From a virus, in the IMG/VR virus record IMGVR_UViG_3300046777_001343, positions 1 through 52,054 of that record: a stretch of 52,054 bases of DNA; one strand, 5' to 3'. The notes beneath the pieces are model-generated. The model searched no databases and was not told the DNA's origin. It saw nothing but the letters and a program-made list of their open reading frames with translations. A program made the position numbers and the translations under genes. This document shows, piece after piece, positions 12,089 through 52,054 of this stretch. Every line of letters begins with the position of its first letter. The first letter of the stretch is position 1.

Positions 12089-12396
12089 TGGCCGAACGCA
12101 AAGACCGTATGGCTTTGCTTTCAAGATACAGCAAGTATCATACCGCAAGGTACGAGTCAAAGCCATCACTTAACTTAAACGTAGAGCAGTGGGCATCTGA
12201 TGCCCTTGTAGAGTCATACGGAATATCTGGCTGCTACGATATACTTGAGTATTACTTTACAGTTGCAGAGAATCCTTCGTGGAACTATTTTGCATACAAC
12301 GCAGAAAAAATATTGCAGGCACAAAAAGATAAAAAGAAAGATGATGAAGAGAGAGAAGAGCGTAGAAGAATGGCAAAGGAGTGGCTAAGTGAATAA
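12088..12396 (+). CDS. Putative helicase-associated protein (possible loader)
   Basis: 102 residues with a strongly charged C-terminal helix (KDKKKDDEEREERRRMAKEW). It lies directly before the replicative helicase, whose GTG start sits inside its last codons. Small helical proteins next to DnaB in phages are often helicase loaders, but no loader signature (no ATPase motif) is visible. The role is inferred from position alone. Confidence 0.4.
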   Translation: MAERKDRMALLSRYSKYHTARYESKPSLNLNVEQWASDALVESYGISGCYDILEYYFTVAENPSWNYFAYNAEKILQAQKDKKKDDEEREERRRMAKEWLSE

Positions 12397-13609
12397 TACA
12401 GAGTCCAAACTAATTACTGCAGTTCTTCAAGATAAACAGATACACGTACTCTTGCAAGCAAATGTAGACAATCTACTTAGAACTCATGGAGATATTTGGA
12501 ACTTCATAAGGCTATATTTTGAAAACAATAAATCTTTGCCACCTGCAGAACTGGTCACAGAAAAGTTTAGAGATTTTTCTCCAATTGCAAATGTTGGTGC
12601 TACAAAGCATCACCTTGAAGAGTTACAGGGTGAATACTTAAACGATAGCCTTAAAGATATACTAAGATCTGCTGCAACCAATGTTCAAAACAATCAAGGC
12701 AATATTGCACTAAATGATTTAATTACACAAACATCAGAGTTAAAGAAAAACACTTCGGCAATTCGTGACATTGATGTAACAGACTTAGAGTCTGCAGTCG
12801 CATACTTTGAAAATCTAAAGATTCAGCAAGCAGCAGGGCATGTTGGAATTAAGACTAATCTCCCAGGGTTTGACAACTATCTTCCATCTGGAATTATGCC
12901 AGGGCAGTTAGGAGTATTCCTAGCATACCCAGGTATAGGAAAGTCCTGGATGGCCTTATACTTTGCTGTACAGGCCTGGAAACAGGGTAAGACACCACTC
13001 GTAATCTCTCTTGAGATGTCGGAGACAGAGGTTCGTAATCGTGTATTTACAATTATGGGAGAAGGTCTTTGGTCACACAGAAAACTATCTAATGGAGAGG
13101 TAGAGTTAGATACTCTCAAGGCTTGGCATGCTAAGCATTTACAGGGCAAGCCAGAGTTTCACATCATCTCTAATGATCAGGGTGGAGAAATTAACCCATC
13201 AGTTCTTCGTGGAAAGATTGATCAGTATAAGCCAGACTTTGTAATCGTTGACTATCTTCAGTTGATGGCTCCTAATCAGAAGTCAGACAATGAAACGGTA
13301 CGAATGAAGAACCTTTCAAGAGAACTTAAACTCATGGCTATTGGTGAAGAAGTTCCTATCATTGCTATCTCATCTGCTACACCAGATGATGTTAATGACC
13401 TTAGCGGAGTACCTACCCTTGGACAGACCGCTTGGTCAAGACAAATTGCGTATGATGCTGACTGGGTCATCGCTCTTGGTAGAGCCTCTAACAGCGATAT
13501 CATTGAGTGTGCTTTTAGAAAAAATCGTAATGGCTTTATGGGAGACTTCCTTGTTCAGGTCGATTTTGACAAGGGATACTATAGATATAAAGACTATGAA
13601 GATAAGTAG
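12389..13609 (+). CDS. dnaB: DnaB-like replicative DNA helicase
   Basis: 406 residues with a GTG start that overlaps the upstream gene by 8 nt; AAGGAG lies 8 nt upstream. Walker A is AYPGIGKSW at ~residues 180-188 and Walker B is VIVDYLQLM at ~285, both in the RecA-like domain of the DnaB family. The N-terminal ~140 residues are helical, as in the DnaB N domain. It would unwind the fork 5' to 3' as a hexamer and pair with the primase encoded next door. Confidence 0.9.
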   Translation: MNNTESKLITAVLQDKQIHVLLQANVDNLLRTHGDIWNFIRLYFENNKSLPPAELVTEKFRDFSPIANVGATKHHLEELQGEYLNDSLKDILRSAATNVQNNQGNIALNDLITQTSELKKNTSAIRDIDVTDLESAVAYFENLKIQQAAGHVGIKTNLPGFDNYLPSGIMPGQLGVFLAYPGIGKSWMALYFAVQAWKQGKTPLVISLEMSETEVRNRVFTIMGEGLWSHRKLSNGEVELDTLKAWHAKHLQGKPEFHIISNDQGGEINPSVLRGKIDQYKPDFVIVDYLQLMAPNQKSDNETVRMKNLSRELKLMAIGEEVPIIAISSATPDDVNDLSGVPTLGQTAWSRQIAYDADWVIALGRASNSDIIECAFRKNRNGFMGDFLVQVDFDKGYYRYKDYEDK

Positions 13610-13621: not shown

Positions 13622-13975
13622 ATGCAGCAAAGCAAGGGAAATATCCCTCCTACCTTCTACCATCATAGGCCTATCAAGAAGTTCTACCTTGACGGGATCA
13701 TCCATGATGAGTCAGCGCTTGGTAGGTTAAAGGATGAATATATCAGGCTACTTGACTCAGAGATGCGCCTTTCTGGGTATGTACCAAGGCTTGACATAAC
13801 TCCAGATTTTACGCTAGACTATAATCATAAGAAAAAATATTTTGAATTTCAACTAACAGTACACGGGACATATACGGGGAGAAAACAGAGCGAATGGATA
13901 GCAGGAATAGACGTAAGCACACCAATCTTTATACAAAAGAGCAAATCAAAAGAGTTCTCACAGGAACAGGTGTAA
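13622..13975 (+). CDS. Hypothetical protein between helicase and primase
   Basis: 117 residues, basic in the middle (NHKKKYFEFQ), with a mix of helix and strand. Its last 82 nt overlap the primase gene in another frame. No family recognised. Its location inside the replication block suggests a DNA replication role, but nothing in the sequence proves it. Confidence 0.5.
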   Translation: MQQSKGNIPPTFYHHRPIKKFYLDGIIHDESALGRLKDEYIRLLDSEMRLSGYVPRLDITPDFTLDYNHKKKYFEFQLTVHGTYTGRKQSEWIAGIDVSTPIFIQKSKSKEFSQEQV

Positions 13976-14838
13976 CTATCGAATCTGAGGTTGACTCAGA
14001 CTACATTATTTTTTGTCCATACCACAATAACAACAGAACCCCAGCAGGAGAAATAGATAAACAGGATGGAACTTTCTTTTGCTTTGCCTGCCACCATGTA
14101 ACTGGATTAACAGAATTTGTTATGCATATGTCTAACAGGACATACTTTGAGGCTGCAAGATTTATTAAGAGTAAAGAAACAGAAACAAGTATTGAACAAG
14201 ATATTGACAAGGCATTATACAAAAAGCCAGAGTTTACAATGTTTGATGAGTTAGTTCTTAAGCGTTTACACAATAACCTTATTGAATCAGAAAGAGCAAA
14301 GAATTACTTTACTTATAGAAAGATAACAAAAGAATCTGCATCAAAGTTTTCTTTGGGTTATTCAGATAAGCAGGACATGGTTACAGTTCCAGTACATAGT
14401 CCAGATGGTTTGCCAATTGGTTTTGTTGGAAGATCTATTGAAGGAAAAGAGTTTAAGAATACTCCAGGCCTTCCAAAATCAAAAACACTTTTTAATCTTC
14501 ATAGAGTTAAAACATCTGGAAAGGTCTACGTAGTAGAATCGTCCTTTGATGCTATTAGGCTTGATCAATGTGGCTTCCCTGCAGTAGCAACACTTGGATC
14601 TAATGTATCAAACATACAAATAGAATTGCTTCAAAAGTACTTTAATGATATAATTGTCATTGCGGATAACGATGAAGCAGGAGGAAACATGAAAACTAAG
14701 ATAGTTGAAAAACTTGGTTCTCGTGTATCCGTTATAAAACTAAATAAACAATATAAAGATATAGGCGATATGGACGATAAGTCAATTCAAGAACTGGACT
14801 TCCAGTTTGACAAATCAATACAGTCTATGCTAAACTAA
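13894..14838 (+). CDS. dnaG: DnaG-type DNA primase
   Basis: 314 residues. An N-terminal zinc-binding site has Cys/His at FCPYHNN (~residue 40) and CFACHH (~62). The TOPRIM acidic motifs follow: VVESSFDAI (~213) and ADNDEAGG (~256). It is shorter than bacterial DnaG (about 600 residues) and lacks an obvious helicase-binding C-terminal domain, as in many phages. It would make RNA primers for the DnaE polymerase encoded downstream. GGGGAGAAAAC upstream of ATG 13894 is a fair ribosome-binding site. Confidence 0.85.
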   Translation: MDSRNRRKHTNLYTKEQIKRVLTGTGVTIESEVDSDYIIFCPYHNNNRTPAGEIDKQDGTFFCFACHHVTGLTEFVMHMSNRTYFEAARFIKSKETETSIEQDIDKALYKKPEFTMFDELVLKRLHNNLIESERAKNYFTYRKITKESASKFSLGYSDKQDMVTVPVHSPDGLPIGFVGRSIEGKEFKNTPGLPKSKTLFNLHRVKTSGKVYVVESSFDAIRLDQCGFPAVATLGSNVSNIQIELLQKYFNDIIVIADNDEAGGNMKTKIVEKLGSRVSVIKLNKQYKDIGDMDDKSIQELDFQFDKSIQSMLN

Positions 14839-14863: not shown

Positions 14864-15514
14864 ATGAGTATAGTAAAGGGATTAAAAGCAATCGATGCCC
14901 TACTCGAAAAGCCAAAATCAGATGGTCCAAAGGTTAAGTGGCTAAAACTTGCCGATGGTCAATCAGTAAAGATTCGATTCATTGAAGAACTTGATGAAGA
15001 TTCAGCAAACTATAGCGCAGAGCGTGGTCTTGCTCTCGTGGTATCAGAGCACACAAATCCAAAGGACTACAAGCGCAAGGCTGTAGATACAATGGATACA
15101 GAAGGCCGTGACTGGGCAGAAGAGATGCACCGCAAGGATCCAAAGGCTGGCTGGAGAGCACGTCTTCGTTTTTATTGCAACGTACTAGTTGACGATGGAA
15201 TTGAAGCACCATATGTTGCAATCTGGTCAATGGGTATCAGCAAGCAGTCATCGTTTAATACAATTCGTGAGTATGCACTTGAAACAGGAAGCATCTCAAA
15301 CGTGGTATGGAAGTTAAAGCGTAATGGTCAGGGAACTGAAACCAACTATACACTTATTCCTTCATCACCTGACAAGGAGCCATTTGACTGGAGTGGTGTT
15401 CAGCCATATCCACTAGAGTCTGCTCTTCGTAAGGTTCCATACGCAGAACAAGAAGCGTTCTACTTGGGCTTCGATAGCCCATCTATTACTTCATCTACCA
15501 ACACTGATTGGTAA
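14864..15514 (+). CDS. Probable single-stranded DNA-binding protein
   Basis: 216 residues with AAAGGAG upstream. A beta-rich core (VKWLKLADGQSVKIRFIEEL, later RLRFYCNVLVDDG and APYVAIWSMG) fits an OB-like fold such as phage gp32-type proteins. It lies between primase and polymerase, where ssDNA-binding proteins are often found, and no other SSB is seen in the window. The end (DSPSITSSTNTDW) is short and weakly acidic. The assignment is by context and fold impression, not by a diagnostic motif. Confidence 0.5.
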   Translation: MSIVKGLKAIDALLEKPKSDGPKVKWLKLADGQSVKIRFIEELDEDSANYSAERGLALVVSEHTNPKDYKRKAVDTMDTEGRDWAEEMHRKDPKAGWRARLRFYCNVLVDDGIEAPYVAIWSMGISKQSSFNTIREYALETGSISNVVWKLKRNGQGTETNYTLIPSSPDKEPFDWSGVQPYPLESALRKVPYAEQEAFYLGFDSPSITSSTNTDW

Positions 15515-15515
15515 T

Positions 15516-18500
15516 ATGAACTACGTCGGCTTACATGTCCATACACACTTCTCATTATTTGATGGTGTGGCTACTCCAGAAGAATACGTGAACCGTGCAG
15601 TTGAGTTAGGGATGCCAGCAATTGCCATCACTGACCACGGTACTTTATCTGGGCATAGGGAACTGCACCGTATTGCAAAAGCAAAGGGCATTAAGCCAAT
15701 TCTTGGGCTAGAGGGATACATGTGTGCAGACATATCTGATACACGAGATAAGTCTGAAAGAGAAGGTCAGCAAGATCTTGTCTACAATCACATTATCCTT
15801 CTAGCCAAGAATCAAATTGGTTTAGAAAACCTTAACAAAATTAGTGAACTATCATGGACAGATGGTTTCTTTAAAAAGCCACGATTTGATTTTACTATTT
15901 TAGAAAAATATAAAGAGGGAATTATTGTAACCTCTGCATGTCCAAGTAGCGTACTTGTCAAAGCACTTGAAGAAGAAGAATTTGCCCTTGCCAAAAAGTA
16001 CATCTCTTGGTTTAAAGAACGATTTAAAGATGACTACTATATTGAAGTTATGCCTCATAATGAGGCTCATATAAATAAATATCTAATAGAACTTGCTGAT
16101 GAGTTTAGCATTAAAGTTGTAGTTACGCCAGACTGCCACCATGTAGATCAATCTCAAAAAGAGGTTCAAGAGTTTAAACTGCTTATGAATACACATGGCA
16201 AAGTTTTAAAGGATAGCACATACGAGAAGTCTAAGAAGCAGCCAGATATGATGAAGCGTCTTGATTATCTATATGGAGAAGATCGTCAGATTACATTTAA
16301 CAAGTTTGACATCCATTTATTATCTTATGAAGAGATTAAGTCAGCGATGGAGTTGCAGGGTATTGATCGCCCAGATATCTACTCAAACACAATTCTATTG
16401 GCAGAGAGCGTTGGCGACTATGGAATTCAGGACGGAATGAACCTACTACCAGTTCAATACAAAAGCCCTGACAAAGAATTAAAGAAGATTGCATATGAAG
16501 GTTTAGAACAAAGAGGTTTTGCAGATAATCCCGAATATATTGCAAGAGTTGAAGAAGAACTTGAGATTATTAAGGATAAGAAGTTTGCGCCTTACTTCCT
16601 TGTAGTTCAAAGCATGATTGCTTGGGCTAAGAAGGAGGGGATCATGGTTGGTCCAGGTCGTGGCTCTGCTGCAGGCTCACTTGTTTGCTATGCCCTTGGA
16701 ATAACAGATGTTGATCCAATTAAGTATGGACTGTTGTTTTTTCGTTTTATTAATCCAGAACGAAATGACTTTCCTGATATTGATACAGATATCCAAGACT
16801 CTCGCCGTGATGAAGTCAAAGACTATCTTGTTAGACAGTATAGACACGTTGCATCCATTGCTACATTTCTACAGTTTAAAGACAAAGGAGTCGTACGAGA
16901 TGTTGCACGAGTATTAAATATACCGCTAACAGATGTAAACAAAGTTTTAAAGTTGGTAGATACTTGGGATGACTTTTGTACTTCTAAATCAACTAGAGAG
17001 TTTAGAGAAAAGTATCCAGAGGTAGAGATTTATGGAGAACAACTTCGTGGAAGGATTCGTGGAACAGGTATCCACGCAGCAGGAGTTGTAACATCTAAGG
17101 ATCCAATCTTTAGGTATGCACCAATGGAAACAAGATCATCACCAGGATCTGATGAAAGAATTCCTGTTGTTGGTGTTGATATGGAAGAGGCTGAAAGGAT
17201 TGGTCTAATTAAGATTGATGCGCTGGGCTTAAAGACTCTTAGCGTAATTCAGGATGCGGTTGCAATGATTAAAGAAAACCATTATAAAGATATAGACTTG
17301 CACTCAATTGATCTTGGAGATTCAAATATTTATACCATGCTTTCTGATGGATATACAAAGGGTGTTTTTCAGTGTGAAGCAACACCGTATACAAATCTTC
17401 TAGTCAAGATGGGTGTTAAGAACTTTAACGAACTTGCTGCATCTAATGCTCTTGTTCGTCCAGGTGCAATGAATACAATTGGTAAAGACTATATTGCTCG
17501 TAAGCATGGAAAGCAAAACGTATCCTATAGTCATCAAATTATGAAACCATTTACGGAGGACACATATGGCTGCGTTTTATACCAAGAACAAGTTATGCAA
17601 GCATGCGTACACCTTGGACAAATGTCCATGTCAGAAGCAGACAAAGTTAGAAAAATCATTGGAAAGAAGAAAGATGCTAAAGACTTTGACGAGTTCAAGG
17701 AACGGTTTGTCAAAGGTGCTTCTGCCTATATTAGTCCCAATCAGGCTCTTGACCTATGGCATGACTTTGAAGCGCATGCAGGCTATTCGTTCAACAAGTC
17801 TCATGCGGTTGCTTACTCTACGCTCTCGTATTGGACGGCGTGGTTAAAGTATTATTATCCATTAGAGTTTATGTTTGCACTTCTTAAGAACGAAAAAGAT
17901 AAAGACAACAGAACGGAATATCTTATTGAGGCAAAGCGTATGGGTATTCCTGTTAAGTTGCCACACATCAATGATTCAGACTTTGATTTCAAGATTGAGG
18001 GCAAAGGAATTAGGTTTGGTCTAACAGGGATAAAATACATATCAAGCAATATTGCGGAAAAGTATATTGCTGCAAGACCATTTAAGAGTTTTAAAGAGGT
18101 AGAAGAGTTTACATTTACTAAAGGTAACGGCGTAAATAGTCGTGCACTTCAAGCAATGAACATGATTGGTGCTCTGACATTTCCAGATAATCCTAGAAAT
18201 GATAACCAGATTAAAGAAAATCTGTATGAATACTTAAACCTTCCAGAGTTTAATATTACGATTCCGTCACACTACTATGCATTTATACAAGATGTAGAGG
18301 ATTTTGAAGAAAAGGGATCTTATGTTTTGCTTGGTATGGTAAAATCAATTAAGCGAGGAACAGGATGGTCACGAGTTGAAATTTTGGACAAGACTGGCAG
18401 TGTTGGTATATTTGATGAAGAGTCTACGACTATTGAGACTGGTCGTACTTATCTTATTCTTGCAAATGATAACAGGATTGTATCTGCAGTCCCTGCTGAT

Positions 18501-18791
18501 GAGATAAAGGGCTCTGCAAATGCTCTTGTAAAGTTTTTAGGTTATAAGCAGTTACCCTATACAGATGAAGAAATGTTTGTTGTTTCTTTTAAGCCAAGAG
18601 TTACAAAGGCTGGAAAGAAGATGGCTTCTCTAACTCTTGCAGACACTGGAAGAGAACTTCATTCAATTACGGTATTTCCTACATCTTTTGCAAAAGCATA
18701 TATGCATATAGAAGAGGGAAAGTCTTATAAGTTTAGTTTTGGAAAGACAAAAGACGGAACAGTAACATTGGAGGATGTACATGTCAGTTAG
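15516..18791 (+). CDS. dnaE: DNA polymerase III alpha subunit (DnaE type)
   Basis: 1,091 residues. The N-terminal PHP domain has HVHTHFS (residues ~7-13), TDHGTL and DCHH. The polymerase core has GPGRGSAAGS (~378), the catalytic aspartates in PDIDTDIQDSRR (~420) and the third in KIDALGLKTLS (~566). A C-terminal OB fold (VLLGMVKSIKRG) follows. There is no inserted exonuclease domain, so it is DnaE rather than PolC. It starts 1 nt after the ssDNA-binding gene. It is the likely phage replicase, perhaps borrowing the host clamp. Confidence 0.93.
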   Translation: MNYVGLHVHTHFSLFDGVATPEEYVNRAVELGMPAIAITDHGTLSGHRELHRIAKAKGIKPILGLEGYMCADISDTRDKSEREGQQDLVYNHIILLAKNQIGLENLNKISELSWTDGFFKKPRFDFTILEKYKEGIIVTSACPSSVLVKALEEEEFALAKKYISWFKERFKDDYYIEVMPHNEAHINKYLIELADEFSIKVVVTPDCHHVDQSQKEVQEFKLLMNTHGKVLKDSTYEKSKKQPDMMKRLDYLYGEDRQITFNKFDIHLLSYEEIKSAMELQGIDRPDIYSNTILLAESVGDYGIQDGMNLLPVQYKSPDKELKKIAYEGLEQRGFADNPEYIARVEEELEIIKDKKFAPYFLVVQSMIAWAKKEGIMVGPGRGSAAGSLVCYALGITDVDPIKYGLLFFRFINPERNDFPDIDTDIQDSRRDEVKDYLVRQYRHVASIATFLQFKDKGVVRDVARVLNIPLTDVNKVLKLVDTWDDFCTSKSTREFREKYPEVEIYGEQLRGRIRGTGIHAAGVVTSKDPIFRYAPMETRSSPGSDERIPVVGVDMEEAERIGLIKIDALGLKTLSVIQDAVAMIKENHYKDIDLHSIDLGDSNIYTMLSDGYTKGVFQCEATPYTNLLVKMGVKNFNELAASNALVRPGAMNTIGKDYIARKHGKQNVSYSHQIMKPFTEDTYGCVLYQEQVMQACVHLGQMSMSEADKVRKIIGKKKDAKDFDEFKERFVKGASAYISPNQALDLWHDFEAHAGYSFNKSHAVAYSTLSYWTAWLKYYYPLEFMFALLKNEKDKDNRTEYLIEAKRMGIPVKLPHINDSDFDFKIEGKGIRFGLTGIKYISSNIAEKYIAARPFKSFKEVEEFTFTKGNGVNSRALQAMNMIGALTFPDNPRNDNQIKENLYEYLNLPEFNITIPSHYYAFIQDVEDFEEKGSYVLLGMVKSIKRGTGWSRVEILDKTGSVGIFDEESTTIETGRTYLILANDNRIVSAVPADEIKGSANALVKFLGYKQLPYTDEEMFVVSFKPRVTKAGKKMASLTLADTGRELHSITVFPTSFAKAYMHIEEGKSYKFSFGKTKDGTVTLEDVHVS

Positions 18792-19791
18792 TATAGAAGA
18801 AGCATTAGCACAACTTGATCCTAAGTTGAGAAAAAGACTTGGTAGTGGGGTTGGTGTTAACTATGAATACCAGCCTACACCCAGTTACGGACTAAACCGT
18901 GCACTAGGAGGTGGACTTCCATATGGCAGACAAGTTCTCATATGGGGCTCAAAGTCATCTGCAAAGTCCTCTATGTGCCTTCAGATGATTGCCCTAGCGC
19001 AAGCAGAGGGTAAGTTATGTGCATGGATTGACTCTGAAATGTCCTACTCAGAAGACTGGGCTAGAACTCTTGGGGTAGATCCAGAAAAACTAATCTACTC
19101 ACAAGCAAGAACTATCAGCGATATGGTAGATGTTGGAGTGGGATTAATGAATGCTGGTGTTGACCTAATTGTAGTAGACTCTATTACATCAATGCTTCCT
19201 GCCATCTATTTTGAAAAAGATACAGATGAAATGAAAGCATTAGAAAATACAAAACAGATTGGAGCAGAATCCCGTGACTTTAGTAACGCATGGAAAATGC
19301 TTAACTATGCAAACAATAAAGTTAAGCCAACTTTGCTTGTTCTTATTTCTCAGTCTCGTAACAATATTAATGCTATGTATACTAGCCAGCAGCCTTCTGG
19401 TGGTCAGGCTACTAAGTTTTATTCCTCATGTATTATTAAACTCTTTTCTTCAGAGTCAGACAATCAAGCGATTAAGGGCAAGATCAAAGTAGGAGATAAA
19501 TTAATTGAAGAAAAAATTGGCAGAACTATTAAGTGGGAACTACAGTTCTCCAAAACCTCTCCAGGGTTCCAGTCTGGTGAGTATGATTTTTATTTTAGAG
19601 GTGACGATATTGGTCTTGATACCATTGGTGACTTGGTTACTACCGCAGAACTAAACGGCATTGTAGAGCGCACAGGGGCCTGGTACATACTTCCTGATGG
19701 TACAAAGGTTCAGGGTAAAGAAGCATTTGTTAATCGTGTAAGAGAGGATCTTGACTTGCAAGAATCAATCAAGGCTAAGTTAAATGCCTAG
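18781..19791 (+). CDS. recA: RecA-like recombinase
   Basis: 336 residues. The start is placed at ATG 18781 because GGAGG (18770-18774) is 6 nt upstream; ATG 18775 touches that site. Walker B is LIVVDSITS and the L2 DNA-binding region includes ISQSRNN and SGGQATKFYSS. Walker A at ~56 reads GSKSSAKSS, with Ala where bacterial RecA has Gly before the lysine. Phage recombinases such as T4 UvsX also vary there. It would promote strand exchange in replication or repair. It overlaps dnaE by 11 nt. Confidence 0.87.
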   Translation: MSVSIEEALAQLDPKLRKRLGSGVGVNYEYQPTPSYGLNRALGGGLPYGRQVLIWGSKSSAKSSMCLQMIALAQAEGKLCAWIDSEMSYSEDWARTLGVDPEKLIYSQARTISDMVDVGVGLMNAGVDLIVVDSITSMLPAIYFEKDTDEMKALENTKQIGAESRDFSNAWKMLNYANNKVKPTLLVLISQSRNNINAMYTSQQPSGGQATKFYSSCIIKLFSSESDNQAIKGKIKVGDKLIEEKIGRTIKWELQFSKTSPGFQSGEYDFYFRGDDIGLDTIGDLVTTAELNGIVERTGAWYILPDGTKVQGKEAFVNRVREDLDLQESIKAKLNA

Positions 19792-36965: not shown

Positions 36966-37165
36966 CAGTAACCAAGGCAAGGTCGTTTGCTAAAGCACTT
37001 AGTTATCGCATATGGGGAACGCTTTCATCTGTGGCTGTTGCGTATGTTATAACAAAGAACGCTTCTCTTTCTGTAACTATTGCATTTTGGGAAACGGTAG
37101 TCAAGGTATTTATTTATTACGCACATGAGCGTGGATGGAACTATATACAATGGGGGAGAAAGTAA
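36962..37165 (+). CDS. DUF2061 membrane protein (copy 3)
   Basis: 67 residues from ATG 36962, overlapping copy 2. The sequence ARSFAKALSYRIWGTLSSVA then IYYAHERGWNYIQWG is clearly similar to copy 2, indicating tandem duplication. The two could form a heteromeric membrane protein. Confidence 0.8.
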   Translation: MTVTKARSFAKALSYRIWGTLSSVAVAYVITKNASLSVTIAFWETVVKVFIYYAHERGWNYIQWGRK

Positions 37166-38688
37166 TGCAGAAAAAGGTTGTTGTTGTCGGTGGAGGCAGC
37201 GCAGGATGGCTAACAGCATTGATGGCAAAAAAATCTTCTCCAGATATAGATGTAACTGTTATAGAGTCAGAAGAGATAGGTATTTTAGGTGCAGGCGAGT
37301 CGTCAGTGCCAGCACTTATTCAGTTTTTTAGGCATTTAGGAATATCTGTTCCCGATTTAGTAAAAAATTGTGACGCAACAATAAAAAATGCTATTAAGTT
37401 TACTAACTGGAACAATGATAATGACTTTTACTATCATGGATTTTTGCCAACAGAAGAGGCATTAGGCCCATATGCAATACCTTTTAAGTTTTTGTCAACA
37501 AGCCCAATGCAAGTATCAAGTTTAGTAATTAATAATGGACTAAAAGAAATAGAGTTTTCAGAAAATATTTCAGAACAAAATAAGGTTCCTTTTATTTTTA
37601 AATCAAAGCAAGGCAAAAACCCAATGCTTGATTATGAAAATATAGGAACCTTCTCTCTTCATATTAATGCTACTAAACTTGCAAATAGGCTAAAAGAAAT
37701 AGGGATTGATCGTGGAATTAGTGTTATAGAAGGAATTGTAAAAGAAGTGTCATTAGATAGTAACAACTATGTTGATGGATTAATTTTAGAGAATGGCTCT
37801 ATGGTTTCATGTGATTTTGTCTTTGATTGCAGTGGGTTTCACAGACTAATTATTGGTAAAATTTTTAAATCAAAATGGAAAAGTTATAAAGAGTTCTTGC
37901 CATCTGACTCAGCCATCCCATTTTTTATTGATATGACAGAAGAAATTCCTCCATACACAGAGTGTATTGCTATGAAGTATGGTTGGATGTGGAAGATTCC
38001 TCTTCAATCAAGATTTGGCTGTGGATATGTCTACGATTCTTCTTTAATATCAGAGAAAGAGGCTATAGAGGAGGTTGAAGAATTCCTTGGTTTTGAGCCA
38101 CACTATCCTAGAAAAGAAAAAGGTGGGTTTAGTTTTAATGCTGGATCATATGAAGAGCCTTGGATAAATAATTGTGTAGCGATAGGTCTTGCAGCAAACT
38201 TCATAGAGCCCTTAGAAGCGACATCTCTTTGGACTAGTACATCATCCCTAATTGAGGTCTTTGCAAATCCAAACTGGATATCAAATAACTCAAAAGAGGT
38301 CAGAGATGAGTTTAACAAGTTTATTGTTTCTTTAAATGAAGAGATTGTAACTCTCTTATATCTACATTATATGTCATTAAGAAAGGATACAGACTTTTGG
38401 AAAAAGTTTTCATATGAGGGCGCACCAGAACAACTAAAACAAAGGCTTGAGATGTGGAAAGTAAGACTGCCGAATAAAAACGATGTATCAAAACTTTGGG
38501 CAGTTGATAGTTGGATAACTATTGCATCTGCACAAAATACAATGAATAAAAGTTTGGCAAAATCCTATCTAGAATACTCTGAAGAGTATCAAAAGGGGAT
38601 TGATACATACGATCATTTTATTAATTACCAAAATTATAAAATTTCACAATGTCTTGGACATAGAGAGTTTTTGGAGAGTTTAAAATGA
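37165..38688 (+). CDS. Flavin-dependent halogenase (tryptophan-halogenase type)
   Basis: 507 residues from ATG 37165 (TAATG overlap with the DUF2061 gene; GGGGGAG upstream). FAD-binding GGGSAGW (~10-16), GAGESS (~43), a conserved Lys in IKNAIKFTNW (~76), the diagnostic WxWxIP motif as GWMWKIP (~273) and NFIEPLEATS (~345). It would halogenate an aromatic substrate using a flavin reductase from the host. Halogenases of this type occur in a few environmental phages; the substrate is unknown. Confidence 0.87.
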   Translation: MQKKVVVVGGGSAGWLTALMAKKSSPDIDVTVIESEEIGILGAGESSVPALIQFFRHLGISVPDLVKNCDATIKNAIKFTNWNNDNDFYYHGFLPTEEALGPYAIPFKFLSTSPMQVSSLVINNGLKEIEFSENISEQNKVPFIFKSKQGKNPMLDYENIGTFSLHINATKLANRLKEIGIDRGISVIEGIVKEVSLDSNNYVDGLILENGSMVSCDFVFDCSGFHRLIIGKIFKSKWKSYKEFLPSDSAIPFFIDMTEEIPPYTECIAMKYGWMWKIPLQSRFGCGYVYDSSLISEKEAIEEVEEFLGFEPHYPRKEKGGFSFNAGSYEEPWINNCVAIGLAANFIEPLEATSLWTSTSSLIEVFANPNWISNNSKEVRDEFNKFIVSLNEEIVTLLYLHYMSLRKDTDFWKKFSYEGAPEQLKQRLEMWKVRLPNKNDVSKLWAVDSWITIASAQNTMNKSLAKSYLEYSEEYQKGIDTYDHFINYQNYKISQCLGHREFLESLK

Positions 38689-46549: not shown

Positions 46550-46578
46550 ATCATACCACAGTTCGACCCATGAGTCAA
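46550..46578 (-). promoter_or_regulatory. Consensus leaderless promoter (leftward)
   Basis: Read on the minus strand: TTGACT (46578-46573), 17 bp, TATGAT (46555-46550) with a TGG extension, then 6 nt to ATG 46543. The -35 contains the stop codon of the phosphatase gene upstream. Confidence 0.78.
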
Positions 46579-47042
46579 GACTTGTCTCCATCCCAGTCAC
46601 CAATCTTGGTAGTAGGTATTCCGTGCTCTTCCCACAGTCTAATAACATTTGGATTATCATCAACTGCATGAAGGACATTCCAATGTTTCTTAATTTTAAG
46701 CAAGATGTCTTTTTTTACTTCATAGTCTGGTCTATTGTCATCATCTTCACGCATATACAATGCGTGGTGGCCAATATCATTTTTAGCAAGCCATTGAGAT
46801 GTTAGCCCACGCCATTTTTCTTTCCTTGATGTAACAATTATGATTTGCCTTTGATCAAAGAAAGCCTGATTTAACATTTCAACTACTTCAAAATTTGGCA
46901 GGGCATCTATAGAAGCCTCATGAAAAGCATCATAATCCCTATTAGAGCCACGAACAAGGTGTAGATATGGATCTACATTAGCCAGAGTTCCATCAACATC
47001 AAAGATGATTGCTGGTGTCATAGGGCTAGTTTTGATCAACAT
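46575..47042 (-). CDS. HAD-family phosphatase (polynucleotide 3'-phosphatase-like)
   Basis: 155 residues. The HAD motifs are all present: DVDGTLA (nucleophile), IIVTSR, a Lys in YEVKKDI, and AVDDNP. The layout resembles the phosphatase half of phage polynucleotide kinase. It could trim 3' phosphates from RNA or DNA ends, or act on nucleotides. No kinase domain is attached. Translation may start at ATG 47042 or at the internal ATG eight codons later (MTPAIIFDVDG). Confidence 0.78.
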   Translation of the reverse strand: MLIKTSPMTPAIIFDVDGTLANVDPYLHLVRGSNRDYDAFHEASIDALPNFEVVEMLNQAFFDQRQIIIVTSRKEKWRGLTSQWLAKNDIGHHALYMREDDDNRPDYEVKKDILLKIKKHWNVLHAVDDNPNVIRLWEEHGIPTTKIGDWDGDKS

Positions 47043-47115
47043 TGTATGTCATAACAAGATAGCACAATGCATAGCCTACTAAAAATGCTGGAATTAAAAA
47101 TAAAAAGTTAATCAT
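47026..47115 (-). CDS. Tiny membrane peptide
   Basis: 29 residues. One hydrophobic helix (MINFLFLIPAFLVGYALCYL). It overlaps the phosphatase start and the previous gene by ATGA, so it would be translated by coupling. It may be real or a translational coupler only. Confidence 0.4.
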   Translation of the reverse strand: MINFLFLIPAFLVGYALCYLVMTYNVDQN

Positions 47116-47285
47116 TCGAAATCTACCTGTGTTTCAAAATACTTTGTCATATAGTTTCCTTCTCCTCTTGCAATTTTAGCAGCAGCGATACGCATACCTA
47201 AAGCATTTGTCTTTGATTCTTCAATAGGAAGAGCCTCAATAGCCTTTGCTATTTCTTCTCTTAATACCATCTCATCTATACTCAT
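47112..47285 (-). CDS. Small helical protein
   Basis: 57 residues from a leaderless promoter. Helical throughout (EMVLREEIAKAIEALPIEES, then LGMRIAAAKIARG). It heads a leftward unit that includes the membrane peptide and HAD phosphatase. Function unknown. Confidence 0.6.
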   Translation of the reverse strand: MSIDEMVLREEIAKAIEALPIEESKTNALGMRIAAAKIARGEGNYMTKYFETQVDFE

Positions 47286-47291
47286 AATTCA

Positions 47292-47320
47292 AGTATACCC
47301 TAAGAGGAACTGATTGTCAA
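47292..47320 (-). promoter_or_regulatory. Consensus leaderless promoter (leftward)
   Basis: Minus strand: TTGACA (47320-47315), 17 bp, TATACT (47297-47292), 6 nt, ATG 47285. The -35 box includes the stop codon of the glutathione peroxidase gene. Confidence 0.85.
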
Positions 47321-47748
47321 ACTATGTCTGATACTTGATGTGAACTAGGATAGTGAGTAATTGTTCCATCAGAAGACACTAGGAATTTTTCAAAGTTCCA
47401 CCCAATGTCTCTTCCTGGTGTAGCATTATTCTTTAAATACTTATATATTGGGTGGGCTTCTGGACCATTAACCTCTACTTTTTGTGAAATAGGAAATGTG
47501 ATTGAGTAGTTAGTTGAGCAAAACTCTTTTATATCTGCATCTGATCCTGGTTCTTGGTTTCCAAATTGATTGCAAGGAAAGCCAATTACAACTATATCTT
47601 CACTTTGTGCCTTCTGTAGGTCTGCATATTGTGATGTATAGCCACAATGACTTGCAGTATTAACTATCAAAATGGTTTTATCTTTAAAACTTTCTAGTTT
47701 TATTTCATTTCCAGCATTGTCAATAAATGACAAGTCGTATATACTCAT
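47317..47748 (-). CDS. Glutathione-peroxidase-like protein
   Basis: 143 residues. The peroxidatic Cys is C35 in VNTASHCGYTSQY. Gln in GFPCNQFGNQEPG and Trp in GWNFEKFLV complete the catalytic set. Such bacterial Cys-type enzymes usually use thioredoxin; a phage thioredoxin is encoded at 45502. It may protect the infected cell from peroxides. Weak ribosome-binding site (AGAAAGAA). Confidence 0.87.
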   Translation of the reverse strand: MSIYDLSFIDNAGNEIKLESFKDKTILIVNTASHCGYTSQYADLQKAQSEDIVVIGFPCNQFGNQEPGSDADIKEFCSTNYSITFPISQKVEVNGPEAHPIYKYLKNNATPGRDIGWNFEKFLVSSDGTITHYPSSHQVSDIV

Positions 47749-47762
47749 TTTTATTCTTTCTA

Positions 47763-48551
47763 TTAGTTAGATAAAACTAGATTAGGATTGATCAATGATT
47801 TCTCGCCAGCCATAAGTCTTTCAATATGGTCACGAATAACTGCGTTCTCTTCTTGGAAGATGTCATCTGATCTATCAGGACCCATTGTTGGTGTAATTCC
47901 CTGAGCCAAAAGATCTTCTTTTAGAGTGCGCTCTACGTCATAGTTAAGAGTTGTACAAGGATAATGCTTAACTACATATCCATCCTTATCAATCAAATAC
48001 TTTTCAAAGTTACAATTCATTGTAAACCCACCATCGTGCTGGTTAAGGTATCTTGATTCATAGTCTGTTTTTTCAACAATGCCAAGTTCTTGCTTCTTAT
48101 CCCAAATTGCCTTGGTCTGTCGTGCAACCTCTAGATAAAGTTCATGTCTTTCTCCAAATGGCTGACCATTTCCATTAAGTCCTGGACCCTGTCCAAGCCA
48201 TGGTGCTTCTAATGGAATTTCTGCGGGATTGGATGTGATCATTTCTGAGAATGGGAATGTAACACCATAAACATCTTCTCCATACATCTTAGAATCTAAA
48301 CCTTTTTCAATACCCTTGGACCACTTACCCTTTGTGATACTTGGTCCACAGAAGTCATTGGTAGGAATTGCTACAACAGAGAAGTCTTCTCCACCAAGGT
48401 CTTCTTGAATCCACTGAATGGATTCCATTTGACCAGCGTTACCACAACCAACTGTAGTGTTAATGAGCATAATTGCTTTGCCCTTGAATTGTTGAAGAAA
48501 GTGTGGAACGCCTTCGGCAGATTCCAATTCGATGTCATATATAGATTTCAT
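47763..48551 (-). CDS. Divergent glutathione-peroxidase-like protein
   Basis: 262 residues from ATG 48551, chosen because the leaderless promoter ends 6 nt upstream; ATG 48578 lies upstream of it. LINTTVGCGNAGQME, PTNDFCGPS and NCNFEKYLIDKDG parallel the Cys, Gln and Trp segments of glutathione peroxidase. The central ~80 residues are an insertion. The Gln and Trp positions differ, so substrate or activity may be new. It is a possible distant paralogue of the next gene. Confidence 0.65.
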   Translation of the reverse strand: MKSIYDIELESAEGVPHFLQQFKGKAIMLINTTVGCGNAGQMESIQWIQEDLGGEDFSVVAIPTNDFCGPSITKGKWSKGIEKGLDSKMYGEDVYGVTFPFSEMITSNPAEIPLEAPWLGQGPGLNGNGQPFGERHELYLEVARQTKAIWDKKQELGIVEKTDYESRYLNQHDGGFTMNCNFEKYLIDKDGYVVKHYPCTTLNYDVERTLKEDLLAQGITPTMGPDRSDDIFQEENAVIRDHIERLMAGEKSLINPNLVLSN

Positions 48552-48557
48552 ATTGAT

Positions 48558-48566
48558 ATTATAACA
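48558..48566 (-). promoter_or_regulatory. Extended -10, leaderless promoter (leftward)
   Basis: Minus strand: TGT then TATAAT (48563-48558), 6 nt, ATG 48551. No clear -35. Confidence 0.6.
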
Positions 48567-48571
48567 CACTT

Positions 48572-49255
48572 TTAACAATCATCTTTTGTGCTTGCAAGAA
48601 CAATGGATGGATCAACGTATGAATTTCCGTAAAAAGTATGCCTTGAATTAGGTCCAAGAACCTTATTTACTCTGTGCTTATACTTATCTCCACCAGGGAT
48701 TACGGCAAGCATTCCAGCCTTTGGCTTAACCTTGATTGGCAAATTTCCAAACTCTAACTCTCCACCTTCAAAATCATCATTGAGATATAAACTAAATGAT
48801 ATTAAAATGTTACTTTCTAGACCTGGATCCTGGTGCCAATACATAGCAAAATCAATATTGTTCTTATCTGCACCATATTCATTTAGGAGATCTTCATTCG
48901 CATTCTCTGCAATCTCTTCATCTGTCATATACTTAAAGGTTTGCAGTGTTGAGTGTCTGCGATAGCCTTCTGGAAGAACTGACTCAAGTCTTTCCCAAAT
49001 TCCGCCAGGGCGAGAAAAAACTGGTACATCAATAAGAACTGAATCATCATTAGGAAACTCAATGTTTCCGTTCTCATCATACTTTGGGACCACATTTAAA
49101 AACTTATTTAAAATATTTTTGTATGGTGATCTCATTGTTGGGTACCACCCGTTTAAGTCATCTGTTTGAGTTTTGAACCAAGATAGTTCTTCTTCTGTAA
49201 GAAAATCTTCTATAATCCAAACTTGCTTATCTTCATCTAAATAAATTTTTTCCAT
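48572..49255 (-). CDS. Prolyl-4-hydroxylase-like Fe(II) 2-oxoglutarate oxygenase
   Basis: 227 residues. Iron ligands H141 and D143 (YWHQDPG) and H194 (YKHRVNKV), with R205 as the 2-oxoglutarate anchor (SRHTFYGN). EGGELEFG and KAGMLAVIPGG are typical prolyl hydroxylase strands. The enzyme may hydroxylate proline in an exported or tail protein. A proline-rich protein and a hydroxyproline-type GlcNAc-transferase are encoded in the same genome. Leaderless promoter at 49262. Confidence 0.8.
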   Translation of the reverse strand: MEKIYLDEDKQVWIIEDFLTEEELSWFKTQTDDLNGWYPTMRSPYKNILNKFLNVVPKYDENGNIEFPNDDSVLIDVPVFSRPGGIWERLESVLPEGYRRHSTLQTFKYMTDEEIAENANEDLLNEYGADKNNIDFAMYWHQDPGLESNILISFSLYLNDDFEGGELEFGNLPIKVKPKAGMLAVIPGGDKYKHRVNKVLGPNSRHTFYGNSYVDPSIVLASTKDDC

Positions 49256-49261
49256 AACAAT

Positions 49262-49270
49262 ATGATACCA
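49262..49270 (-). promoter_or_regulatory. Extended -10, leaderless promoter (leftward)
   Basis: Minus strand: TGG then TATCAT (49267-49262), 6 nt, ATG 49255. It lies between the tRNA-Glu gene and the hydroxylase gene. Confidence 0.55.
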
Positions 49271-49278
49271 TAACTTTG

Positions 49279-49350
49279 TAGCCCCAACGGGAATCGAACC
49301 CGTCTTTACGCCGTGAAAGGGCGTTGTCCTAACCGATAGACGATGGAGCC
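49279..49350 (-). tRNA. tRNA-Glu (anticodon TTC)
   Basis: Acceptor GGCTCCA/TGGGGCT. The anticodon loop CTTTCAC lies between CGCC and GGCG. T arm ACGGG-TTCGATT-CCCGT. Discriminator A; CCA not encoded. Confidence 0.9.
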
Positions 49351-49354
49351 AAGA

Positions 49355-49573
49355 CTAAACATCCATTTCGTAGTATGTTCCCCACCACTTGTAAGGCTTG
49401 TTTAGTATTACCCACATTTTTCCGTGGTATTTATAACGCCAACCATAGTCGCCATCTTCATCCATACACATAGCCTTAAACAAATGGTTGCCAGCAAACC
49501 CTCCAGAGACATTACCTATCCATCTTAATGGTATTATGTTAGTTCTCTGATGTTTCTTTAAACGATTTATCAT
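49355..49573 (-). CDS. Small hypothetical protein, aromatic-rich
   Basis: 72 residues from ATG 49573; longer starts overlap the previous gene more. It is rich in Trp/Tyr (YGWRYKYHGKMWVILNK, then YKWWGTYYEMDV). No family recognised. Confidence 0.45.
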   Translation of the reverse strand: MINRLKKHQRTNIIPLRWIGNVSGGFAGNHLFKAMCMDEDGDYGWRYKYHGKMWVILNKPYKWWGTYYEMDV

Positions 49574-49664
49574 CTTTCGGTACCCACACTTTCTTTCCAT
49601 CTTTCCAAACGGGCCAATAGCCAAGACTGCGCCAATCCATAGACATTATTTTAGCCTCTTTCAT
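49539..49664 (-). CDS. Small hypothetical protein
   Basis: 41 residues with AGGAG upstream and a TAATG overlap with the gene before it. It reads MSMDWRSLGYWPVWKDGKKV and ends in acidic/polar residues. It overlaps the next leftward gene in another frame. Confidence 0.5.
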   Translation of the reverse strand: MKEAKIMSMDWRSLGYWPVWKDGKKVWVPKDDKSFKETSEN

Positions 49665-49741
49665 TATTCTCCTATTGCAAACCAGATAAGCATAGCAGCA
49701 AGAATAAACCCTGCCCCCATACCAAGTACAAAACTTATCAT
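49664..49741 (-). CDS. Tiny membrane peptide
   Basis: 25 residues, a single hydrophobic helix (MISFVLGMGAGFILAAMLIW). It overlaps both neighbours (ATGA and TAATG), with AAAGGA upstream. Confidence 0.45.
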   Translation of the reverse strand: MISFVLGMGAGFILAAMLIWFAIGE

Positions 49742-49983
49742 CCCATATCCTTTTCCCATAGAGTTAAACACTTAGTACATTGTATACCATTCTCACGCAT
49801 ATACCAAGTATGATCACAGCCAAGAACCCTATCTTTGGGCTTTCTGTGGACACCTTCTCTAACCTGTTGTCTAAAGATACCATTTGGATCATGGATATGG
49901 CACTTATCTCCAATGCGCCAGTCCTCCACTTTATATTTACACGGAAGACCTTTTTTTGTTAGTGAACTACAGTCTCTTGCCAT
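49738..49983 (-). CDS. Zinc-binding protein
   Basis: 81 residues. The first half has CSSLTKKGLPCKY with CHIHD, a small treble-clef-like pattern. The second half has GCDHTWYMRENGIQCTKC, a second ribbon. It overlaps its neighbours closely. Function unknown. Confidence 0.62.
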   Translation of the reverse strand: MARDCSSLTKKGLPCKYKVEDWRIGDKCHIHDPNGIFRQQVREGVHRKPKDRVLGCDHTWYMRENGIQCTKCLTLWEKDMG

Positions 49984-50074
49984 TTACACACCAAATTTTG
50001 TAATCGCTCATGGTTTGATGATTATCCCAATATTCAATATTTTCTTTTTCCATTTTGCAGGTTGGGCAAATCAT
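49967..50074 (-). CDS. Tiny zinc-ribbon-like peptide
   Basis: 35 residues, ATGA overlap with the gene before it. CPTC at residues 3-6 and one later Cys. Probably translated by coupling. Function unknown. Confidence 0.4.
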   Translation of the reverse strand: MICPTCKMEKENIEYWDNHQTMSDYKIWCVNGKRL

Positions 50075-50193
50075 TGTCTGTGCCGTTTCTTATTACCAAA
50101 ACGAATCTTAACTTCAGCCTTAGCCTGATCTACAATGGCTTTGGTGATTTCTTCAACACTAAACTCTTGGTCGAATGTTTGTTCAGTATCCAC
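50071..50193 (-). CDS. Small helical protein
   Basis: 40 residues with a GTG start that overlaps the previous gene by 11 nt. An acidic start (VDTEQTFDQEF) and a basic end (RFGNKKRHRQ). The start codon lacks a strong ribosome-binding site. Confidence 0.4.
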   Translation of the reverse strand: MDTEQTFDQEFSVEEITKAIVDQAKAEVKIRFGNKKRHRQ

Positions 50194-50389
50194 CTAGGCA
50201 CTCATTTCTTGTATGGTAAAGTCTAATCTTAGTCATAGTCTTTTTGTTGGGTGCATTAAGTGGTTCTCCACATGCTCCACACTCCATATCCCATTCGCCA
50301 GAAAAGAAGTCGTATCGTAATCCTTTTGTGCGATTATATTTTTCTATTCTAAACTGGGTAAATGGATCAGGAATTTCTAAATTTATCAT
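50183..50389 (-). CDS. Small zinc-binding protein
   Basis: 68 residues from ATG 50389; the longer frame from 50464 contains the promoter and is rejected. CGACGEPL and a late Cys could bind zinc. It is rich in aromatic and basic residues. It heads a leftward unit with a consensus leaderless promoter. Confidence 0.6.
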   Translation of the reverse strand: MINLEIPDPFTQFRIEKYNRTKGLRYDFFSGEWDMECGACGEPLNAPNKKTMTKIRLYHTRNECLGGY

Positions 50390-50395
50390 ACTACA

Positions 50396-50424
50396 AGAAT
50401 ACCGTATTTCGGCAGGGATGTCAA
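50396..50424 (-). promoter_or_regulatory. Consensus leaderless promoter (leftward)
   Basis: Minus strand: TTGACA (50424-50419), 17 bp, TATTCT (50401-50396), 6 nt, ATG 50389. Confidence 0.8.
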
Positions 50425-50427
50425 GTC

Positions 50428-50553
50428 TTAAGAAACAAGACCCATAGACAAATGAGTAAAGCAAACGTCAGCAACAATATAGTCGGCGTGATCTACGACA
50501 ATATCAAAATGTGTAGCGTCTTTGTCGCAAAAAAAACACTTAGATTTATTCAT
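50428..50553 (-). CDS. Small zinc-finger-like protein
   Basis: 41 residues from ATG 50553. CFFC at residues 6-9 and CFTH near residue 31 are possible zinc ligands (C-C-C-H). A leaderless promoter ends 6 nt upstream. Function unknown. Confidence 0.58.
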   Translation of the reverse strand: MNKSKCFFCDKDATHFDIVVDHADYIVADVCFTHLSMGLVS

Positions 50554-50781: not shown

Positions 50782-50927
50782 GTGGACAGTTTATACTCAT
50801 ATCCAGGAGTCTCAACCTTTACTTTATACACGCTGCTGAGTTAGTCCGTGTTGGCTTTTCGTGATAGTCACCTACCAAGAAAGTTTATGAAGGTAATACT
50901 CACCATATGGCTTTCGGCTTCTATACA
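50782..50927. other. Gene-poor gap between divergent promoters
   Basis: No convincing gene. A leftward transcript from the promoter at 50928 would cross it. On the minus strand a GTG-started 17-residue frame (VYKVKVETPGYEYKLST) ends at the -35 of the zinc-finger promoter; it is too short to call. A small RNA is possible. Confidence 0.3.
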
Positions 50928-50956
50928 ATTATATCCATTTTGCCACGGTATGTCAA
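50928..50956 (-). promoter_or_regulatory. Consensus promoter, no clear gene (leftward)
   Basis: Minus strand: TTGACA (50956-50951), 17 bp, TATAAT (50933-50928). It is fully consensus, yet no good start codon follows at the leaderless distance. Confidence 0.72.
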
Positions 50957-50957
50957 G

Positions 50958-50963
50958 TATAAT
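50958..50963 (+). promoter_or_regulatory. TATAAT box, leaderless promoter for the GIY-YIG-like gene
   Basis: TATAAT ends 6 nt before ATG 50970. It lies 1 nt from the -35 of the leftward promoter, so RNA polymerase could not occupy both at once. Confidence 0.6.
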
Positions 50964-50969
50964 GAACCT

Positions 50970-51290
50970 ATGGAAGAAGCAGTCTTATATATACTATATA
51001 GCCCATTACATAAGGCTGTTAAAGTTGGGATATCTGATATAAGCGGAAGAAGGTTTGCAAGCCATAGGACCAAGGGTTGGATATTGATCAAGTATTGGCA
51101 TTTTTTCGAACGGGATAAAGCGAGAGCCGTAGAAACCCTAGTACTAAGAACACTAAGGGAAAGATATGGACACTTTCTGGATAAGTCGGATATGCCTCAA
51201 AATGGATACACAGAAACCTTTGATGCCTCAAAGATAACTCGTAGGGCTTTGATCCGTATGGTCAATAGGGCTATAAAGGATGTATCGTAA
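50970..51290 (+). CDS. GIY-YIG-like nuclease
   Basis: 106 residues from ATG 50970; an earlier in-frame ATG (50907) lies upstream of the promoter box. LYILYSPLHKAVKVGISD followed by RRFASHRTKGWIL and an ERDKARAVETLVLRTLRE helix match GIY-YIG nucleases of the T5orf172/MUG113 type (Tyr, Arg and a catalytic Glu). It is the only rightward gene near the origin and may cut host DNA, or act in homing or replication. Confidence 0.62.
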   Translation: MEEAVLYILYSPLHKAVKVGISDISGRRFASHRTKGWILIKYWHFFERDKARAVETLVLRTLRERYGHFLDKSDMPQNGYTETFDASKITRRALIRMVNRAIKDVS

Positions 51291-51453: not shown

Positions 51454-51462
51454 TTATCCACA
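51454..51462 (+). promoter_or_regulatory. DnaA box 1
   Basis: A perfect TTATCCACA. It lies directly upstream of the promoter for the zinc-ribbon gene. Confidence 0.75.
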
Positions 51463-51465
51463 GGT

Positions 51466-51588
51466 TTAGCAGTTATGAGTATATCCACAATCAGGACATT
51501 TCTCTCCTGGATTTGCTACACAATCGTCACACCAATCTGGTGCATCTTTCCATAACTTACCCAATGAATCATATTCTGGTTTGTCCAT
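51466..51588 (-). CDS. Small zinc-binding protein
   Basis: 40 residues. WCDDC, CPDC and a final Cys could bind zinc; the rest is acidic. A leaderless promoter ends 6 nt upstream. Function unknown. A near-match DnaA box (ATATCCACA, 51481-51489) lies inside the gene. Confidence 0.62.
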   Translation of the reverse strand: MDKPEYDSLGKLWKDAPDWCDDCVANPGEKCPDCGYTHNC

Positions 51589-51594
51589 ATGTAT

Positions 51595-51603
51595 AGTATA
51601 TCA
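51595..51603 (-). promoter_or_regulatory. Extended -10, leaderless promoter (leftward)
   Basis: Minus strand: TGA then TATACT (51600-51595), 6 nt, ATG 51588. DnaA box 2 begins 6 bp upstream of it. Confidence 0.62.
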
Positions 51604-51608
51604 AAGAG

Positions 51609-51969
51609 TTATCCACAGCCTGATAAGCCAAAAATGTCATAGTTATCCACATGTTATCCACAGATTAATCTTACTGATTAGATTATTAGATAGGGTAGAA
51701 GTGGAGTGAAGTGGAGGATAGTGGAGTACTGAGCACTTTTATAGATGGCTTCGTAATCTTTGACGGGCCAAACCCCAAACCCCCAAACCTTAATAGCGGC
51801 ATTATACCCCAAACCTTTATATCTGTCAAACCTTTATATGCATGGCTTGGGCATTATATACTACAAACAATGGTTTGTCAAGCCCATTTTCATGCAAAAC
51901 CTTCATATAAAATTTGCTCAAATTTGCTCAGAAAATAAAGAAAACCTTTATAAAAATATATAAAGGTTT
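51609..51969. other. Probable replication origin (DnaA boxes, iterons, AT-rich hairpin)
   Basis: Perfect TTATCCACA boxes lie at 51609-51617, 51643-51651 and 51654-51662 (plus 51454-51462). Direct copies of AAACCTTTATA follow at 51811-51821, 51828-51838 and 51942-51952, with one-base variants at 51785 and 51897. The copy at 51942 forms a perfect 11-bp inverted repeat with TATAAAGGTTT at 51959-51969. AATTTGCTCA is repeated in tandem at 51911-51930. The region has no convincing gene. This is the standard layout of a DnaA-dependent or iteron origin with an unwinding element. Confidence 0.72.
51942..51969. repeat. 11-bp inverted iteron pair in the origin
   Basis: AAACCTTTATA (51942-51952), 6-nt AT loop, TATAAAGGTTT (51959-51969). 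The arms are perfect and share the iteron sequence. Confidence 0.8.
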
Positions 51970-52054
51970 GATAAATATTTAAATATCAGGAAATAATTTA
52001 TAGTGGTTTGTTATGGTGTATTTACTATAGGGGATTGTGGGTATCATCTTGATC
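51970..52054. other. AT-rich right edge, no gene seen
   Basis: The last ~85 bases are AT-rich with no recognised gene or promoter with a clear target. They probably continue the origin or lead into genes outside the window. Confidence 0.4.

Follow-up and report, generated by a model that had tools for sequence, protein, structure and literature searches.

A conserved non-coding module carrying clustered DnaA boxes was identified in a freshwater phage and its relatives. On balance, and with moderate confidence, this module is interpreted as an origin of replication that depends on host DnaA, resembles the bacterial basal unwinding system (BUS) and feeds the phage's own replisome. The observations on which this interpretation is built are the sequence elements of the module, their geometry and conservation, the replisome genes and the lack of a detectable phage DnaA. 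For phages that bring a complete replisome, the usual assumption is that the initiator is likewise encoded or recruited by the phage. In the present case, the docking sites are laid out in an oriC-like manner and are kept across the family, and it is therefore probably the host that opens the phage DNA.

Gene content and predicted host

The window (i.e. the whole stretch of DNA analysed here, an IMG/VR virus record of 52,054 bases) lacks a terminal repeat, and its first reading frame, which is tape-measure-like, begins at base 33 and appears to be cut. The initial annotation had proposed that helicase, primase and polymerase are supplied by the phage, and all three were found, together with SSB and RecA:

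12389-13609: DnaB-type helicase
13894-14838: DnaG-type primase
14864-15514: SSB
15516-18791: PolIII alpha
18775-19791: RecA-type recombinase

The window also encodes a Cas4/RecB-type exonuclease, a RuvC-type resolvase and a large terminase, the last being the only head gene found in it. Compared along its full length, PolIII alpha reached 55% identity with its closest counterparts in Stanwilliamsviridae (e.g. Streptomyces phage BillNye), and the replication and structural genes of BillNye follow the order of those in the window. As judged from a window without other head genes, the order tail, helicase, primase, SSB, PolIII alpha, recombinase, resolvase and terminase appears to be shared with members of the Stanwilliamsviridae type (BillNye, Annadreamy and EGole). 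Unlike the Streptomyces phages, the freshwater group has a GC content of ~38% and is represented by circular assemblies of ~109-112 kb. Elsewhere in the window, a tryptophan-halogenase family protein (37135-38688; Pfam E 4e-104) adjoins hydroxylase- and kinase-like genes, and leftward genes at 46575-50464 include those for a glutathione-peroxidase-like protein and a 2OG-Fe(II) oxygenase, with tRNA genes close by.

WhiB was encoded in 7/7 freshwater relatives examined (the window record being counted among them) and, among 14 control genomes, in Corynebacterium only, which indicates that the host of the phage is an actinobacterium. This host may belong to the Nanopelagicales, as the phage signal peptides resemble those of that group. 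A search for a host genome with a surface-protein query gave no match, and an actinorhodopsin query matched solely non-actinobacterial rhodopsins.

With regard to initiators, the DnaA box-binding domain DnaA_C was not detectable in 19 phages (freshwater and Streptomyces), Bac_DnaA was absent from 7 freshwater relatives, and neither a DnaC-type loader nor a Rep_3 (winged-helix) initiator scored over the cut-off in 7 freshwater records. The idea that the phage encodes DnaA, a Rep_3 initiator or a DnaC-type loader was rejected on these grounds.

A cluster of exact DnaA boxes

The following elements were located in the non-coding DNA to the right of a conserved gene:

50907-51290, + strand: neighbour gene, conserved beside the module, with a weak match to phrog_681 (phage endonuclease family)
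51454-51462, + strand: DnaA box 1, exact TTATCCACA
51481-51489, + strand: near-match box ATATCCACA, with no fixed position seen in relatives
51609-51617, + strand: DnaA box 2, exact, starting 34 bp upstream of the start of box 3
51643-51651, + strand: DnaA box 3, exact, distal member of a tandem pair
51654-51662, + strand: DnaA box 4, exact, proximal member of the tandem pair

The four exact TTATCCACA boxes and the single near match of the initial annotation were thereby confirmed. The exact boxes lie within 209 bp, all on the + strand, and boxes 3 and 4 share the same orientation and are separated by 2 bp. A single further exact TTATCCACA was found in the 52 kb (35594, - strand). First-order Markov simulations (200 runs) predicted 0.6 exact boxes in the whole window, and the 200 simulated windows never contained >1 exact box per 210 bp; the clustering is far beyond chance.

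Conservation among freshwater relatives

Relatives were gathered by means of the protein encoded at 50907-51290, yielding 80 loci. In most of these, the stretch to the right of the neighbour gene was shown to contain TTATCCACA boxes, always in the orientation of that gene. An alignment of 41 dereplicated modules, chosen by their boxes, revealed an invariant layout, namely AGTTATCCACA-NN(N)-TTATCCACA-GATWAATSTTACTGAT...TTAGA...AAGTGGAG-TGA-AGTGGAG-GAT-AGTGGAG. Because this set had been selected by its boxes, IMG/VR was rescanned with the downstream core alone, which returned at least 65 distinct stretches, the group being larger than that. The counted sequences are kin, so that the counts represent conservation rather than independent events: among the matches listed, an exact proximal box ending 8 bp before the core was present in 62/65 distinct stretches, an exact tandem pair with a 2-3 bp gap in 57/65 (3 bp in 35 and 2 bp in 22) and a third exact box 33-34 bp further upstream (the equivalent of box 2, at -62 from the core) in 29/65, while the 200 bp upstream of the core held 169 forward and 0 reverse boxes across the 65 stretches listed. 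The box cluster thus appears real and conserved, and very likely represents a binding region for host DnaA. The earlier proposal that host DnaA is used is supported by this conserved position, orientation and spacing, in combination with the lack of a detectable phage DnaA.

At the DNA level, comparison of the module region with named phages yielded chance matches only, and a search of the conserved core for a structured leader RNA gave no consensus fold on either strand and no Rfam match. A second, inverted tandem box pair was observed ~5-6 kb to the right of the module in some relatives (L018 11687-11706, with equivalents in G003, G007 and G009). It precedes a DUF932 gene, is flanked by a conserved hairpin on one side and a sigma-70-like promoter on the other, and lacks trios. 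Contigs G005 and G007 had suggested that this second pair marks the physical genome end, a notion that was rejected as 1/50 contigs ends there; contig ends beyond the module were scattered and a fixed terminus was not found.

Multiple exact, high-affinity boxes, with additional pairs elsewhere in some relatives, would also be expected of a datA-like sink that titrates host DnaA and thereby blocks initiation on the host chromosome during infection. This function is considered improbable, as three to five boxes is a small number for a titrating site, and as the fixed spacing, orientation and adjacent elements would not be required for it.

A DnaA-trio-like run and an AGTGGAG array

To the right of the proximal box, two elements were found that had been overlooked in the initial annotation:

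51665-51679, - strand: run resembling DnaA-trios, with five triplets that read NTN on the top strand and NAN on the bottom
51700-51726, + strand: three AGTGGAG repeats (51700, 51710 and 51720), exactly 10 bp apart and near-invariant in relatives

From a pair of boxes, bacterial DnaA extends onto a trinucleotide repeat whose middle adenine is conserved (PMC6669920), and the published BUS rule comprises a TTATCCACA box, tandem boxes <=3 bp apart, a spacer of 0-16 bp and >=3 NAN trios (PMC8287927). The window contains four exact and conserved boxes, a tandem pair of one orientation within the 3 bp limit, and five bottom-strand NAN trios within 16 bp of a box. In the window, these five triplets are followed by one broken triplet and then by two more (51683-51688), and the run has a base composition of 79% AT. 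Five trios in a row represent a 4-6% chance event, and the fact that the window contains only five counts against the origin reading. Among relatives, 7-8 consecutive triplets were observed in 25/41, while random window DNA reaches >=7 in ~1% of places. Rightward of the proximal box, T on the top strand had a frequency of 0.89 in the trio register, compared with 0.15 and 0.49 in the others, and a control with the wrong base (NAN on the top strand) never produced a run longer than 4. Such a run is specific to the module, as the second box sites reached 3 triplets at most. The strand that carries the trios presumably agrees with that in B. subtilis, as judged from the B. subtilis sequence and from 5'-tail scaffolds (PMC8287927).

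The module thus resembles the BUS of oriC (Bacillus subtilis DnaA-boxes #6/#7 and DnaA-trios; PMC6669920, PMC8287927) in its tandem TTATCCACA boxes of one orientation with a 2-3 bp gap, in the bottom-strand trinucleotide run, with its conserved middle base, that follows the boxes on their right, and in the additional distal boxes. It differs from oriC in that it is located on a phage genome without a dnaA gene, its trios are degenerate, the strongest AT-rich stretch is not adjacent, and the trios are followed by a 10-bp-phased AGTGGAG array and then by promoters reading toward the boxes. The trio-like run is taken as support for, and not as proof of, a BUS-type opening.

An AGTGGAG-type array with exact 10-bp spacing was found in 65/65 stretches among the matches listed; the search pattern dictated the first interval but not the second. 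As judged from the alignments, the trio-like run and this array appear to be the most conserved parts of the module. The AGTGGAG repeats and the reverse-complemented DnaA box have GTGGA in common, and the repeats could represent low-affinity DnaA sites in the opposite orientation.

Promoters and short repeats

The region to the right of the array was shown to contain the following:

51829-51801, - strand: P2, perfect sigma-70 consensus (TTGACA-N17-TATAAT), leftward, toward the boxes
51881-51853, - strand: P1, perfect sigma-70 consensus (TTGACA-N17-TATAAT), leftward
51785-51795, 51811-51821, 51828-51838, 51897-51907 and 51942-51952, and inverted at 51959-51969, - strand: TATAAAGGTTT elements (AAACCTTTATA on the + strand)
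51911-51930, + strand: tandem AATTTGCTCA pair (starts 51911 and 51921), conserved in close relatives, not beyond

P1 and P2, likewise missed in the initial annotation, are two of four perfect sigma-70 promoters in the whole window, and a perfect promoter of the P1 kind was present in 45/59 relatives. A third perfect leftward promoter (50928-50956) lies inside the start of the rightward gene at 50907-51290. It had previously been suggested that some of the boxes are closely followed by leaderless promoters; the strong promoters are oriented leftward, however, and the boxes are therefore located downstream, 130-390 bp from the expected starts.

The main rival explanation is that the boxes serve transcription: host DnaA sitting on them would activate, repress or road-block P1/P2, so that early phage expression is tied to the host DnaA level and no origin is involved. 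P1 and P2, 130-240 bp rightward of the boxes, are directed across them, a perfect promoter of this kind is kept in the 45/59 relatives mentioned above, and DnaA is known to act as a transcription factor (PMC8203912). In addition, the extra pairs upstream of the DUF932 gene in several relatives indicate that box pairs occur at promoters too, which leaves room for a role in transcription. Against this, the boxes lie far downstream of the expected starts and away from the promoters, and the trio-like run and the AGTGGAG array are better conserved than the promoter flanks, which is unexpected for simple regulation. Purely transcriptional control is consequently considered unlikely, though it deserves to be taken seriously.

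The five AAACCTTTATA-like copies, the inverted pair and the tandem AATTTGCTCA of the initial annotation are all present. The forward copies at 51785 and 51897 carry 1 mismatch each, 51942-51969 forms a perfect 11-6-11 palindrome, and the four exact copies of AAACCTTTATA are the only ones in the window. One TATAAAGGTTT copy abuts the -35 box of P2, one is located in the P2 spacer and one at the expected start of P2, while the remaining copies lie upstream of P1. Given this arrangement around and inside P1/P2, the TATAAAGGTTT elements look like operator or promoter elements, which would fit them better than their earlier designation as iterons.

An iteron-type origin, in which a phage Rep protein would bind the AAACCTTTATA repeats and cooperate with DnaA as in the RK2, P1 and F plasmids, is suggested by the combination of DnaA boxes, short repeats and AT-rich DNA, and by the confinement of exact AAACCTTTATA repeats to this region of the window. 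Iterons are 17-22 bp in length (PMC4980987), and in iteron plasmids they are tandem direct repeats of about this size, whereas the AAACCTTTATA repeats are 11 bp long, irregularly spaced, drift among relatives and overlap perfect promoters; in addition, no Rep_3 gene was found in 7 relatives. AAACCTTTATA was therefore rejected as an iteron, and an origin of this type is regarded as very improbable; the three AGTGGAG repeats would be a better iteron candidate than AAACCTTTATA. The module is comparable to iteron-plasmid and P1-type origins (RK2 oriV, P1 oriR, F and pSC101; PMC4980987) in that host DnaA boxes occur in the candidate origin of a non-chromosomal replicon, but it belongs to a phage without a Rep_3 initiator (7 records) and without 17-22 bp iterons, which supplies its own DnaB-type helicase, primase and PolIII alpha.

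Helix stability and GC skew

The AT-rich setting described in the initial annotation was borne out, as the least stable 50- and 100-bp stretches of the window both fall in this region, the former starting at 51951 and the latter being:

51930-52030, no strand: 100-bp stability minimum of the window, a candidate for an unwinding element or for the upstream part of a promoter

This minimum lies in the same intergenic region as the trios but ~270 bp from them, rather than beside them, which counts against the origin reading. The weakest stretch of the module falls within the top 0.6% in two relatives with circular genomes (108,955 and 111,771 bp), yet is not the weakest of either genome.

A GC-skew switch at ~51.6 kb had been predicted for an origin; for a DnaA-dependent origin of the BUS type, such a change is supportive rather than a requirement. 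The detrended cumulative GC skew of the two circular relatives instead peaked 4-7 kb to the left of the module, close to a change in gene orientation, and did not turn at the module. This counts against the origin reading, and GC skew was rejected as origin evidence. Of the initial interpretation, the pairing of host DnaA with a phage replisome is supported, whereas the iterons, the skew switch and the placement of boxes upstream of leaderless promoters are not.

Box clusters in Streptomyces phages

A TTATCCACA cluster near the equivalent genome end was found in 12/12 Stanwilliamsviridae-type Streptomyces phages tested, each comprising two to four exact copies in a span of ~290 bp, at around 118-124 kb in genomes of 126-136 kb. 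The freshwater phages share this placement of the cluster with Stanwilliamsviridae. An unannotated gap of 1.4-1.7 kb encloses the cluster in Annadreamy, EGole, Wakanda and Comrade, and several Streptomyces phages display the pair geometry of the freshwater phages. Among other actinophages (Pleione, WaldoWhy, RedBear and Satis), 0/4 were shown to contain a cluster or any TTATCCACA. In none of the Streptomyces phages tested was a trio run found, though boxes are present, and the trio part is therefore not family-wide; unlike these phages, the freshwater group possesses both the trio-like run and the AGTGGAG array.

The cluster sites of EGole (124219-124263), PumpkinSpice (119800-119832) and WhereRU (121053-121083) end ~50-62 bp before a right terminal repeat of 10.6-12.6 kb, while in the Loccivirinae checked the cluster lies 5-6 kb from the right terminal repeat. 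A link between the box cluster and genome-end processing is possible in EGole, PumpkinSpice and WhereRU.

The high-affinity DnaA box of Streptomyces is TTGTCCACA (PMC4285127). The Streptomyces phage clusters consist exclusively of TTATCCACA, without TTGTCCACA, keeping A at position 3 where the host box has G, and this discrepancy counts against an origin that depends on host DnaA. It would suit an unrecognised phage protein, distinct from DnaA, that reads the TTATCCACA sites. The lack of a DnaA_C-like domain in 19 phages, and the exact identity of TTATCCACA with the general bacterial DnaA box, render such a reader quite improbable.

Proposed mechanism and implications

DnaA binding, melting, helicase loading and origin activity at the module are inferred. 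Under the favoured reading of a BUS-like, host-DnaA-dependent origin, host DnaA would bind the tandem + strand TTATCCACA pair (51643-51662), aided by the distal boxes at 51609 and 51454, and the DnaA filament would extend to the right onto the trinucleotide run (51665-51688, bottom strand), melting the trios. The opened site would then receive the phage DnaB-type helicase and primase, after which PolIII alpha, SSB and RecA would carry on replication. The AGTGGAG repeats may bind more DnaA or another protein, and the leftward sigma-70 promoters, which traverse the site, may either activate the origin by transcription or drive early genes.

A single DnaA box has been described in corticoviral prophages (PMC1950889), and an origin has been predicted by Ori-Finder in a Pseudomonas phage (PMC11512268); a non-exhaustive literature search returned no description of a phage module of the present kind. 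More broadly, and as a tentative proposal, large virulent actinophages of one family may mimic the BUS, such that the host initiator melts the phage DNA and hands it over to phage helicase and PolIII without any phage initiator, with the AGTGGAG array as an additional, undescribed element.

Among the non-coding features of this abundant group of freshwater phages, the predicted site for the host initiator is the best conserved. If the phage module works in the manner proposed, it would provide an independent natural test of the generality of the DnaA-trio mechanism, and the recurrence of the box cluster in cultivated Streptomyces phages makes the idea directly testable in laboratory hosts that are non-pathogenic.
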